A stretch of DNA of 64,000 nucleotides from Acidobacteriota bacterium (GTDB taxonomy: Bacteria > Acidobacteriota > Terriglobia > Bryobacterales > Bryobacteraceae): the NCBI GenBank assembly GCA_029776225.1, contig JAKOTR010000033.1:124001-188000 (forward strand), given 5' to 3'. Below are positions 31,001-39,074 of the stretch, in pieces. Each line of letters begins with the position of its first letter. Within the stretch, counting starts at the first letter, position 1. The translations under genes were made by a program, and so were the position numbers. The notes beneath the pieces are model-generated. The model was not told where the DNA came from. It made no database searches and saw only the letters and a program-made list of their open reading frames with translations.

Positions 31001-31016
31001 GTTCTGAATTCGGAAC
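31001..31016. promoter_or_regulatory. palindromic operator candidate, upstream copy
   Basis: GTTCTGAATTCGGAAC is a 16-bp inverted repeat with one imperfect pair. It matches the copy at 31086-31101 in 15 of 16 positions. It ends 7 bp before the -35 hexamer of the AT-hook gene promoter, a usual place for a regulator site. Confidence 0.6.
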
Positions 31017-31023
31017 AAAGGTC

Positions 31024-31052
31024 TTGAAAAGTCCCAGAAAGTGCGATAAAAC
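31024..31052 (+). promoter_or_regulatory. sigma70-like promoter of the AT-hook protein gene
   Basis: TTGAAA at 31024-31029 and TAAAAC at 31047-31052 are separated by exactly 17 bp. The -35 matches the consensus in 5 of 6 positions and the -10 in 4 of 6. Transcription would begin near 31059 and give a leader of about 80 nt. The promoter lies between two near-identical palindromes. Confidence 0.5.
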
Positions 31053-31074
31053 ACTTCTAGCATTCATGTTGGAT

Positions 31075-31129
31075 GCGAGTTCGGTGTTCTGAATTCAGAA
31101 CGCACCTCCGTTGTGAAGAACGAACTCGC
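31075..31129 (+). promoter_or_regulatory. nested inverted repeat in the leader of the AT-hook gene
   Basis: GCGAGTTCG at 31075-31083 is the exact reverse complement of CGAACTCGC at 31121-31129. The helix can be extended inward by TTCT/AGAA. The 16-bp palindrome 31086-31101 lies inside and would compete for the same bases. The GGGAG ribosome site begins right after the outer arm, so folding could affect translation. Confidence 0.55.
31086..31101. promoter_or_regulatory. palindromic operator candidate, downstream copy
   Basis: GTTCTGAATTCAGAAC is a perfect 16-bp palindrome. It lies about 27 bp downstream of the predicted transcription start and exactly 85 bp, close to eight helical turns, from the upstream copy. 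That geometry fits cooperative binding or looping by a dimeric regulator. Confidence 0.65.
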
Positions 31130-31140
31130 GGGAGCAAACG

Positions 31141-31344
31141 ATGGACGTGGTAAAAATTCTAGGCGAACTCCGTCAGGAACGCGAACACATCGAGGAAGCG
31201 ATCATTAGTTTGGAGCGGTTGGCCCGCGGGCGTGGCAAGCGCAGGGGGCGTCCGCCCGCCTGGCTGGCGATGGCCAAGAAGCGTGGCCGGCCGGCGGGAA
31301 GCAAGAACAAGACCACCAGTGCTGCGAAGACCGCGGTCGCCTGA
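31141..31344 (+). CDS. small AT-hook protein, probable DNA-binding regulator
   Basis: The 67-residue protein has two parts. Residues 1-28 (VKILGELRQEREHIEEAIIS) form an amphipathic helix likely to dimerise as a coiled coil. Residues 29-67 are strongly basic and carry two AT-hook-like motifs, KRRGRPPAW (33-41) and KKRGRPAGSKNK (46-57), whose Arg-Gly-Arg-Pro cores bind the minor groove of AT-rich DNA. GGGAG eight bases before the ATG supports the start. It stands alone behind two palindromes, a promoter and a leader hairpin. A nucleoid-associated or autoregulatory role is inferred from motifs and context; a target is not known. Confidence 0.8.
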   Translation: MDVVKILGELRQEREHIEEAIISLERLARGRGKRRGRPPAWLAMAKKRGRPAGSKNKTTSAAKTAVA

Positions 31345-31386
31345 TGGCAAGCCGGTGAAAGGACACTTGCCGGTGGGTGTAGCGGA

Positions 31387-31418
31387 GGGCGAGTCGACGT
31401 CTACCGGTTTGCTCGCCC
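31387..31418. terminator. stem-loop between convergent genes
   Basis: GGGCGAG at 31387-31393 pairs with CTCGCCC at 31412-31418 across an 18-nt loop. It sits between the stop of the AT-hook gene and the stop of the minus-strand NamZ fusion gene. A T-rich run (CTTAT) follows on the plus strand only. The evidence is modest. Confidence 0.4.
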
Positions 31419-31419
31419 C

Positions 31420-33783
31420 TTATCTGTATAGCAGGTATTGCTCGCGCAGCTTGAGGAAATCCCGCAGGATTTCCTCGGTGTCCTGCTGAATTTCCAAGGG
31501 GTCGCTGCCCGCCTGAATCTTTTCCATCACCTGGCGGGAGCCGATCAGCCGGGCGCATTCTTCCAAGGCAATCCGGCCGGGATACAGTTTCTGAAGCGAA
31601 GCCGCTATTTCCAGCCCCAGCCTCGAGCTGTTGAACGCGTCGCGGGCAGTCACCACGAAACGCACGCCCTCAATCCACTGCCCCGCGAAATTCGACGACG
31701 ACGGCCGAAAACGCGTCGGGTAAACGCGAATTCCTGGAATAAAACGCGAATTGAGGTACGCCGCAAGCTCGGCGCCGCGGATCCAATCGGCGCCAATCTG
31801 CTCGAACGGCGCATCGGTTCCCCGCCCCACCGAATAGTTTTTCGCGTATTCGAGCATCGCCACTCCGGGATAGAGCAACGCCGCGTTGAGGCTGCGCATA
31901 TTCGGCGACGGATCGACCCAGGTGAGGCCGGTCGAATCGAACCAGTCGCCGCGCTGCCAGTTGCGCATTGGCACCACGCGGAGATCGGCCTGTAACTTGT
32001 TCACGCCGTTGAACATGCGAGCCAGCTCGCCGATGGTCATACCGTGCCGGAGCGGCAAGCCCGCCAGGTACCCGATGAACGATCTCAGCTCCGCTTCGAG
32101 CAGCGGACCCTCGACGTGAACGCCGGTGATCGGGTTGGGCCTGTCGAGCACGAAGTACGGGATGCGCCGTTCGGCGGCCGCCTCCATGGCATACGCCATT
32201 GTGGTCGTATAGGTGTAAAAGCGAGCGCCGATATCCTGAATGTCGAAGACAAGCGCGTCGATATCGCGCAGCATTTCCGCCGTAGGCCGCCGGGTTTTGG
32301 CCGAGTAAAGGCTCCAGACCGGGATTCCGGTGGCGGGGTCTCTGGCGTTATCGATGTTTTCGCGGTCCTCCTGCCCGGTGATGCCGTGTTCGGGGGAAAA
32401 GAGCGCGGTGACACGGACGCCGGCCTCGACCATGCGGTCGACATTACGCTTCCCGTCGCGGTCCAGGCCGGTGTGGTTGGTGATCAGCCCCACGCGGCGG
32501 CCGGCAAGCTGCGCGAATCCCTCCTGCGCCATGGAATCCAAACCGGTGAGTACCTCCGCGTTGCGCGCCACGGTGCGCCGGACGCCCGCGCCCACCAGCG
32601 CTTCGTTGTAGCCGGTGATGCTCACGCGTGGCTCGTTAATGTTCAGCGCCGCGGCGACCACGGTCCCCACCCGGGAGCGCAGCGAAGTGATGGCCGGACG
32701 GACCCGCGGATGCACCGAGTTCGCCAGCAGAATGACGTAGCTCTGCGAGACCGGATCGATCCACAGCGACGTGCCGGTGAAGCCGGTGTGCCCGTAGGAG
32801 CCGATCGGGAACAGCTCGCCGCGGTTTCCGGAATAGGGCGAATCGATATCCCAACCCAGCCCGCGCAGAATCGGCTGGTTTGGAGGCGATTGCGGCGTGG
32901 TGAACTTCCGGACGGTGGCCGCGCTGAAGATGCGCACTCCCCGGTAGGTTCCCCAACCGAGCATCATTTCGGCGAAGCGGGAAAGATCGGCCGCGGTGGT
33001 GAAGAGGCCGGCGTGGCCCGCGACGCCGCCCATGTACCGTGTGGTGGGGTCGTGCACAATCCCGCGCAGCGGCGTGCCCTTCACAACCTCGGTGGGCGCG
33101 ATGCGCAGCCTCAGCGTTGCCGGCGGCCGGAACATCGACGTATTCATTCCGAGCGGCCCGAAAATGTGCTGGCGCACATACTGCGGCAGGTCCACGCCGC
33201 TCACCTTGCGGACAATCTCGCCGAGCAGGATGAAATTGATGTCGCTGTAGACGAACTGCGCGCCCGGAGGCGCGGTGGACACTTCGGCCAGCGCTTTCTT
33301 GATCCCGGTCTCATATCCGCTCCAGGCGGGCACGATGTCGAGCGTCGGGCGCAAGCCGGAAAAATGCGTGAGCAGGCTTCGCACCGTGATGTCGCTCTTG
33401 CCGCCTTGAAACTCCGGCAGGTATTTCGTCACCGGATCGTTCAGCCGCACCCTGCCGTGTTCGAACAGGTGCATGATCGCCGGGGTGGTGGCCACGACTT
33501 TGGTGAGCGATGCGACATCGAAAATCGTGTCGAGGGTCATGACTTCCCGGCGCGGCACAAGGGCGCGGCAGCCGTAAGCCTTCCGGTGCACAATGGCCCC
33601 GCGATGCGCCACAACGAGCACCGCTCCGGGAATCTGGTCCTCTTTGATGGCCTGGGTGATGATGGCGTCCAGGTCGGCCGAAGCGCGAAAAACCGGCGCG
33701 CGTTGCGGTGCGGGCGCGGCGGCGCGCGAAGCGGCCGGGGACACGCCCAGAGCGGTCACCAGGGAACGGCGGGAAATTTTCAT
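31420..33783 (-). CDS. serine hydrolase (AmiE/beta-lactamase family) fused to NamZ (DUF1343) exo-N-acetylmuramidase
   Basis: The start at 33783 gives 787 residues; the frame is open further but only inside the next gene. A twin-arginine-like leader (SRRSLVTALGV) indicates export. Residues about 35-400 form a class C beta-lactamase-type hydrolase with Ser92-Leu-Thr-Lys95, Tyr179-Ser-Asp and His332-Thr-Gly. GHAGLFTTAADLSRF is typical of the N-acetylmuramyl-L-alanine amidase AmiE group. Residues about 412-787 form a DUF1343 domain like Bacillus NamZ (VGLITNHTGLD, ALFSPEHGI, FDIQDIGARFYTY, DRPNPI), which removes terminal MurNAc. In Bacillus subtilis these activities come from separate genes of the MurNAc recycling cluster. 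It overlaps the previous gene by ATGA. Confidence 0.88.
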   Translation of the reverse strand: MKISRRSLVTALGVSPAASRAAAPAPQRAPVFRASADLDAIITQAIKEDQIPGAVLVVAHRGAIVHRKAYGCRALVPRREVMTLDTIFDVASLTKVVATTPAIMHLFEHGRVRLNDPVTKYLPEFQGGKSDITVRSLLTHFSGLRPTLDIVPAWSGYETGIKKALAEVSTAPPGAQFVYSDINFILLGEIVRKVSGVDLPQYVRQHIFGPLGMNTSMFRPPATLRLRIAPTEVVKGTPLRGIVHDPTTRYMGGVAGHAGLFTTAADLSRFAEMMLGWGTYRGVRIFSAATVRKFTTPQSPPNQPILRGLGWDIDSPYSGNRGELFPIGSYGHTGFTGTSLWIDPVSQSYVILLANSVHPRVRPAITSLRSRVGTVVAAALNINEPRVSITGYNEALVGAGVRRTVARNAEVLTGLDSMAQEGFAQLAGRRVGLITNHTGLDRDGKRNVDRMVEAGVRVTALFSPEHGITGQEDRENIDNARDPATGIPVWSLYSAKTRRPTAEMLRDIDALVFDIQDIGARFYTYTTTMAYAMEAAAERRIPYFVLDRPNPITGVHVEGPLLEAELRSFIGYLAGLPLRHGMTIGELARMFNGVNKLQADLRVVPMRNWQRGDWFDSTGLTWVDPSPNMRSLNAALLYPGVAMLEYAKNYSVGRGTDAPFEQIGADWIRGAELAAYLNSRFIPGIRVYPTRFRPSSSNFAGQWIEGVRFVVTARDAFNSSRLGLEIAASLQKLYPGRIALEECARLIGSRQVMEKIQAGSDPLEIQQDTEEILRDFLKLREQYLLYR

Positions 33784-34076
33784 AGCAGAGCCCGCGCGGC
33801 CTCCTCGAGAACTTCGGCCAGCCGGACATCCCTCGCCGTCACGCCTCCGGAGTCGTGCGTGGTGAGGTCCACCGTAACCCGGTTGTAAACGTTCGACCAT
33901 TCCGGGTGGTGGTCCATGGCCTCGATTTTCAGGGCCGACATGGTCATGAACCCGATGGCGCGCGCGAAATCCGCGAACTGGTACTCACGATGCAGCTTGT
34001 CATTTTTGAGCGTCCAGCCCGGCAGTTTTCCCAGAGCCGCCTGAATCTCCTGCGGGGTCAGCTTCGGAGATGGCAT
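33780..34076 (-). CDS. phhB: 4a-hydroxytetrahydrobiopterin dehydratase
   Basis: This 98-residue protein is a complete pterin-4a-carbinolamine dehydratase, which recycles the pterin cofactor of aromatic amino acid hydroxylases. The active-site signature is AMDHHPEWSNVYNRV followed by DLTTHDSGGVTARD, and a starting LPGWTL is typical. No hydroxylase gene is in the window, and such proteins also occur with molybdopterin metabolism. The stop codon overlaps the start of the NamZ fusion gene (ATGA), so they are translationally coupled, although the two functions have no obvious link. Confidence 0.9.
   Translation of the reverse strand: MPSPKLTPQEIQAALGKLPGWTLKNDKLHREYQFADFARAIGFMTMSALKIEAMDHHPEWSNVYNRVTVDLTTHDSGGVTARDVRLAEVLEEAARALL

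Positions 34077-35810: not shown

Positions 35811-39074
<3,264 letters not shown>

Follow-up and report, generated by a model that had tools for sequence, protein, structure and literature searches.

Among the described systems that come closest to the locus presented here is that of Rco_LS20, the regulator of plasmid pLS20, which we take to be of the Xre type. Two operators of this system lie 75 bp apart and form a short loop with tetramers of the protein, which controls its own promoter; each operator contains several motifs, and the 75-bp spacer carries a static bend (PMC4207663). The CI repressor of lambda forms oligomers that join operators by DNA looping and controls its own promoter (PMC3708714), with a loop of 2.3 kb (PMC4207663), and combines a helix-turn-helix (HTH) domain with a C-terminal domain of the S24 family (PMC8565304). 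A third system, the non-canonical LexA of the Bacteroidetes, is described as a protein with a CI-type HTH and an S24 C-terminal domain that has palindromic sites with a fixed spacer, keeps the Ser-Lys dyad and controls SOS genes (PMC8565304).

The locus shares something with each of these systems. As with Rco_LS20, there are two operators at a short spacing (about 85 bp here) and the regulator's own promoter appears to be under control; that system, however, is a plasmid conjugation switch with several motifs per operator and a bent spacer. With lambda CI, the candidate regulator has in common the HTH plus S24-type C-terminal fold and a site at its own gene, whereas CI is phage-borne and cleavable and makes a 2.3-kb loop; here the protein is chromosomal, encoded beside ubiX and without the catalytic lysine, and the sites lie 85 bp apart. 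The Bacteroidetes LexA resembles it in the HTH/S24 layout, the fixed spacer and the site upstream of the regulator gene, and differs in that here the lysine is missing and LexA is encoded separately. The parts of the system belong to known kinds; searches of the open-licence PMC literature brought up no account of the regulator family, of its operator or of an AT-hook target. Comparison of the sequences makes it reasonably probable, in our judgement, that a regulator of the CI/LexA fold, autoregulated beside ubiX, controls the gene of a small AT-hook-like protein through two operators, probably by repression.

The AT-hook gene and its two operators

The window, that is, the whole stretch of DNA that was analysed (64,000 nucleotides), belongs to an Acidobacteriota genome of 5.18 Mb in 115 contigs. 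The features of the locus are the following:

31001..31016, no strand: operator site 1, GTTCTGAATTCGGAAC; the wider consensus at site 1 of the 34 exact-pair loci is T-GTTCYGAAWTCRGAAC-A
31024..31029, plus strand: -35 element TTGAAA, 7 bp past site 1
31047..31052, plus strand: -10 element TAAAAC, after a 17-bp spacer from the -35
31086..31101, no strand: operator site 2, GTTCTGAATTCAGAAC, a perfect palindrome in the inferred 5' leader
31130..31134, plus strand: ribosome binding site GGGAG, by sequence reading
31141..31344, plus strand: 67-codon open reading frame for the AT-hook-like protein, by translation
31382..31427, plus strand: G+C-rich hairpin past the stop codon (z -2.07, no T-run)

Both palindromes, the promoter (TTGAAA, 17 bp, TAAAAC) and the 67-codon gene were found where the initial annotation had placed them. 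Relative to the inferred transcription start, site 1 is centred at about -51 and site 2 at about +34. A consensus scanner reported no sigma-70 promoter at the locus, we think because it requires a final T in the -10 hexamer; columns 47-52 across the 34 aligned exact-pair loci are enriched for T-A-A-A-A-A/C. The hairpin, absent from the same scanner's terminator list, is a possible 3' end of the AT-hook transcript. The gene is flanked by one for an amino-acid permease and by an opposing one, which encodes a beta-lactamase-type plus NamZ protein (window positions 31420-33900, minus strand; 826 residues, with a beta-lactamase-type domain and the N and C domains of NamZ exo-muramidase). Elsewhere in the window, positions 35811-39074 of the plus strand encode a tricorn-type protease of 1087 residues with PD40 repeats and tricorn C1, PDZ and peptidase S41 domains.

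When the window was scanned for the palindrome with up to three mismatches, five strand matches were obtained against 1.19 expected, a number that none of 100 shuffles reached; the five are both sites on both strands and one site with three mismatches. Since a scan of the window is too weak by itself, conservation in relatives was used as evidence. In the 5.18-Mb genome the strict form, GTTCYGAAWTCRGAAC, occurs at three places, namely the two window sites and one on contig C8, so that the genome scan suggested in the initial annotation yielded one further copy; the reversed control of this form occurs nowhere in the same genome.

Homologues of the AT-hook protein are present in 76 of 101 genomes, and upstream DNA was read for 74 of the 115 matches, from 64 genomes (the 41 unread matches are mostly weaker). 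Two exact GTTC-N8-GAAC sites precede the gene at 34 of these 74 loci; seven more combine an exact with a 7-of-8 site, similarly spaced, and two have a single site. The remaining 31 loci have no site, and ten of these hold second copies from genomes in which another copy was also read. A pair or near-pair is thus found in 41 of the 64 genomes, and the two-operator arrangement around the promoter, recognised initially in the window alone, is kept in relatives, though by no means at every homologue. One genome (G035) gives ten AT-hook matches, with palindromes at only one of the five loci read.

The distance between the sites ranges from 81 to 87 bp, and its mean over the 34 exact pairs is 84.6 bp, or 8.05 turns of 10.5 bp; the initial annotation's reading of a spacing near eight turns therefore holds for the mean, whereas over the whole range the spacing is not strictly phased to one face. 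A TTG that would begin the -35 element stands 7 bp after site 1 at 27 of the 34 loci and is followed by a TAAAAC-like -10, while the distance from the end of site 2 to the start codon varies from 26 to 110 bp. The arms are invariant by selection, having been the basis on which sites were chosen. Within the spacer of the 68 paired sites, G stands as base 6 in 88% and C as base 11 in 85%. Of 101 whole genomes, 40 contain the paired pattern and 4 the reversed one; in a larger set of 200 the numbers are 100 and, again, 4. In both sets some of the matches lie in apparent coding sequence, and those are probably due to chance.

The 67-residue protein consists of an N-terminal helix (residues 3-30) followed by two AT-hook-like motifs, RRGRPPAW and KKRGRPAGSKNK, the first of which also resembles the C-terminal motif of H-NS. 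Its single-sequence model reaches a pLDDT of 85-96 over residues 1-30 and is less confident in the tail. The xenogeneic silencers H-NS and MvaT are likewise small, with a helical N-terminus and a motif of the R-G-R-P type. The window protein matched no Pfam family, even at an E-value of 10. Among 28 members of its family, nine match Histone_HNS weakly (best E 0.0086; the six shown score 10.2-14.4 bits against a cut-off of 25.6) and seven match AT_hook, PF02178 (best E 0.14; an example scores 12.4 bits against a cut-off of 17.4). The likeness to H-NS and MvaT thus consists of the small size, the helical N-terminus, the R-G-R-P-type motif and the weak matches of those nine members; the differences are that the matches shown fall below the cut-off, that the window protein has none, and that it is 67 residues long with a second AT-hook-like motif. 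The protein is presumably nucleoid-binding. It had no match in the phage or the plasmid collection and one relative among viral contigs, a homologue of 43% identity (L323:173-346) that lies upstream of genes judged by eye to be portal- and capsid-like.

A regulator gene with the same site

The third strict site of the genome sits on contig C8, in the interval that separates ubiX from a divergently oriented gene for a regulator of 261 residues (G000:C8:29428-30210, minus strand), on a contig other than that of the AT-hook gene. In a first set of 66 regulator loci (G089, at a contig end, was left out), the site is present at 55 of the 57 loci from the same order and at none of the nine from other orders; the two same-order loci without it are G015 and G046, the latter broken near a contig end. 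The named set, whose species partly overlap the first, comprises the best 80 of 142 confirmed loci and is drawn from metagenome genomes with titles such as Bryobacterales, Bryobacteraceae, Solibacteraceae, Acidobacteria and Terriglobia; the nearest named homologue, from Bryobacterales isolate fen_235, is 87% identical, and the order is accordingly taken as Bryobacterales. Exactly one site lies within 450 bp upstream of the regulator in all of these best 80 loci, against a background of 0.027 sites per 450 bp in the rest of the same loci, and each of the other spacers (2-7 and 9-14 bp) occurs in 0-4 of them. Because the regulator gene carries its own site, autoregulation is probable. By eye, this site is centred at about -62, upstream of a TTGCCC/TATAAT-like promoter, and thus about one turn further from the start than site 1 at the AT-hook gene.

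The surroundings of the regulator are also conserved in these best 80 of 142 loci: ubiX is divergent beside it in 73, and all 80 contain an opposite-strand match to a small partner gene. In 54 of the 73 the start of the site is 17-20 bp away from that of ubiX (as placed by tblastn), and for this reason it may also act on ubiX. None of the 80 loci contains an AT-hook match, from which it follows that the link between regulator and AT-hook promoter acts in trans. The partner gene (L005:7002-7466 on G000:C8) encodes 152-155 residues, is convergent with the regulator and, in the loci with compared coordinates, overlaps the regulator's 3' end. An exact site lies upstream of it in 3 of 30 loci and a TTTC...GAAC variant in several more, with the TTTC variant in the source genome. 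Its protein gave four chance-level matches and no convincing relative in the PDB, and scattered weak matches in Pfam, the best to TscA in 3 of 14 members at 0.01. A hand count of the 51 strict sites in 61 genomes puts 19 at the regulator gene and 17 at AT-hook promoters; the convergent partner gene accounts for 2, and the other 13 lie at further places.

Paired sites tend to occur together with the regulator. The regulator occurs in 39 of the 41 genomes with an AT-hook pair or near-pair and in 16 of the 23 without one (Fisher test, 0.008). In the 200-genome set it was detected in 170 genomes of the family, and a pair is found anywhere in 93 of these against 7 of the 30 without it (Fisher test, 0.003). 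The seven genomes with a pair and no detected regulator, which speak against control by this protein, are G019, G036, G116, G125, G137, G147 and G157; the pair of G147 resembles coding sequence, the assembly of G137 is 96% complete, and in G019 and G036 neither the regulator nor ubiX was found, which may reflect an assembly gap or joint loss. Five further genomes have ubiX and no regulator that could be found (G014, G017, G026, G037 and G038), and these have no exact pair, nor is there a site within 3.5 kb of DNA surrounding ubiX. A regulator search in ten genomes lacking it, run without a positive control, found none. A further point against such control is that 16 of 55 regulator-bearing genomes have no pair at the AT-hook copies read; the coupling can therefore be lost.

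The model of the regulator, built from 42 sequences, has a mean pLDDT of 71.5, with blocks of 84-96 in residues 1-80 and values below 50 in residues 93-146. In fold searches, residues 1-80 matched P22 c2, TP901-1 CI, DdrO and SinR at Z 9-10, and 41 of 42 members matched HTH_19 (best 3.9e-5; the two members detailed lie under the Pfam gathering score). On this modelling, the N-terminal domain is an XRE/CI-like HTH of the HTH_3/HTH_19 type; by both Pfam and fold it is distinct from the winged HTH of LexA. Residues 141-252 resemble LexA and CI at Z up to 10.8 (for LexA, Z 10.8 and an rmsd of 3.0 over 98 residues), and Pfam matches Peptidase_S24 weakly in 8 of 42 members (best 0.0062); in the model the C-terminal domain has the S24, or LexA-CI, fold. 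The Ser-Lys catalytic dyad is not preserved. The catalytic lysine (204-212, the correspondence to LexA being read by eye) is missing from every one of 56 and of 42 members, the 56 remaining after nine of 65 sequences from other orders or from one broken gene were excluded; at the serine position, 27 of the 56 and 23 of the 42 have S and the others F, T, A, W, M or R. With no lysine and a variable serine, self-cleavage is unlikely and the regulator is probably non-cleavable. It matched no NCBIfam model and nothing in the phage collection, and its profile retrieved three chance-level matches among PDB sequences. A comparison with PHROGs gave weak matches only.

This fold bears on one alternative, namely that the palindromes are LexA boxes of the SOS response. 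Their GTTC/GAAC half sites do recall the LexA boxes of several phyla, and the C-terminal domain of the regulator has the fold of LexA; the genome, however, encodes a separate canonical LexA (173 bits), whose gene has no GTTC-N8-GAAC-type site in the surrounding 3.6 kb, the CI-like regulator lacks the lysine in every member counted, and the strict sites of the genome are confined to the AT-hook gene and the regulator gene. Control by LexA was rejected on the location of these sites and the bare lexA region, and we regard it as very improbable.

The site also varies together with the protein. By analogy, the recognition helix corresponds to model helix 42-51 of the regulator, which in most members reads LSR(L)(A/S)DIEN with small variations and in one lineage LINR(I/V)SEIEN. 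In the best 80 of 142 named loci, the regulator's own site carries G as base 5 at 6 of 6 LINR loci, while base 5 G or base 12 C occurs in 1 of 74 others (locus L301, the single non-LINR exception, with base 5 G; Fisher test, 2e-8), and at the AT-hook sites the change is seen in 4 of 4 from the LINR genomes G020 and G035 against 3 of 64 elsewhere (Fisher test, 4e-5); these cases are few and related by descent, so that both values overstate independence and are indicative only. Among the pairs listed for the 200-genome set, a list that leaves out some genomes such as G133, the same base change appears in G126 and G177; their regulators share 91 and 98% identity with the LINR query, the helix itself being unread. 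G157, of the same genus, shows the LINR-type base although no regulator was found there.

The initial annotation had offered another candidate for the binder, the AT-hook protein itself, which would recognise an AATT core in the palindromes and repress its own gene. The protein does have AT-hook-like motifs, and the four core bases are all A/T in 49 of the 68 AT-hook sites; AATT itself is found in just 13 of those 68 and in 25 of 55 regulator-gene sites, and the fixed 8-bp spacer between the arms suits a rigid dimer. The distribution of the site also speaks against the proposal: it is present at the regulator gene in all of the best 80 of 142 loci, where there is no AT-hook match, is missing from 31 of 74 AT-hook loci, and occurs at the regulator gene of G018 and G040, which have no AT-hook match (assemblies 62 and 82% complete). 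In addition, base 5 tracks the predicted recognition helix of another protein, the XRE-like one. For the site at the regulator gene, the uncommon AATT core and the behaviour of base 5, autoregulation by the AT-hook protein was rejected, and there is scarcely any probability left for it; possibly the protein also binds A/T-rich DNA at the locus as an added layer.

Possible modes of control at the AT-hook promoter

Taken together with the sequence co-variation, the candidate that very probably binds the palindromes is the XRE/CI-like regulator. What we infer comprises this binding, the direction of regulation, looping, the signal and the function of the AT-hook protein. The regulator, encoded on another contig, would bind both palindromes at the AT-hook promoter in trans, one dimer just upstream of the -35 and another in the 5' leader. 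Either the C-terminal domains would join the two bound dimers in a loop of about 85 bp, or polymerase would be blocked, and repression would result; on release of the regulator, the small AT-hook/H-NS-like protein would be made. Short loops of about 85 bp usually need bent DNA or a bending protein. Looping between the two operators, suggested by the modelled C-terminal fold, is a tentative proposal to which we give somewhat less than an even chance.

That the regulator acts as a repressor at this promoter seems likely from the arrangement of the sites: two sites that bracket a promoter, one of them in the leader, are the usual geometry of repression, and -51 is a non-standard position for an activator. 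These points weigh against a different use of the same CI/LexA-fold protein, as an activator throughout, or as an activator at site 1 and a repressor at site 2, for which CI at PRM is a precedent. Such activation, which we think unlikely but worth keeping in mind, would be in line with the constant 7-bp distance from site 1 to the TTG at 27 of 34 loci, with the imperfect -10 TAAAAC, and with the own-gene site lying upstream of its TTGCCC/TATAAT-like promoter at about -62 (by eye); moreover, Rco_LS20 reportedly activates its own weak promoter (PMC4207663).

Further sites and implications for the family

Two-site promoters were also seen at other genes. Each in single species, they stand before apparent surface, polysaccharide and regulatory genes (L311, L312, L313, L314, L315, L316 and L317), and several pairs away from AT-hook genes precede genes that resemble, by eye, those of a sigma-54 activator, a response regulator, a polysaccharide chain-length protein and secreted proteins.

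A broader proposal is that of an order-wide chromosomal CI-like switch, independent of RecA, in which the regulator and its convergent partner would form a sensor/anti-repressor pair with a histone-like AT-hook protein as its chief conserved output, a single two-operator switch thereby setting a nucleoid state in these acidobacteria; we consider this speculative, and less probable still than activation at the AT-hook promoter.

Returning to repression by the CI/LexA-fold regulator, the sequence evidence names a probable regulator, an operator and a main target for a regulator family present in 170 of 200 genomes, and it predicts that LINR- and ALSR-type regulators favour operators that differ at base 5. 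Should the AT-hook protein shape the nucleoid, a bacterial chromatin protein would here have a two-operator switch dedicated to it, and such a switch would use a phage-repressor fold that is probably not opened by DNA damage.
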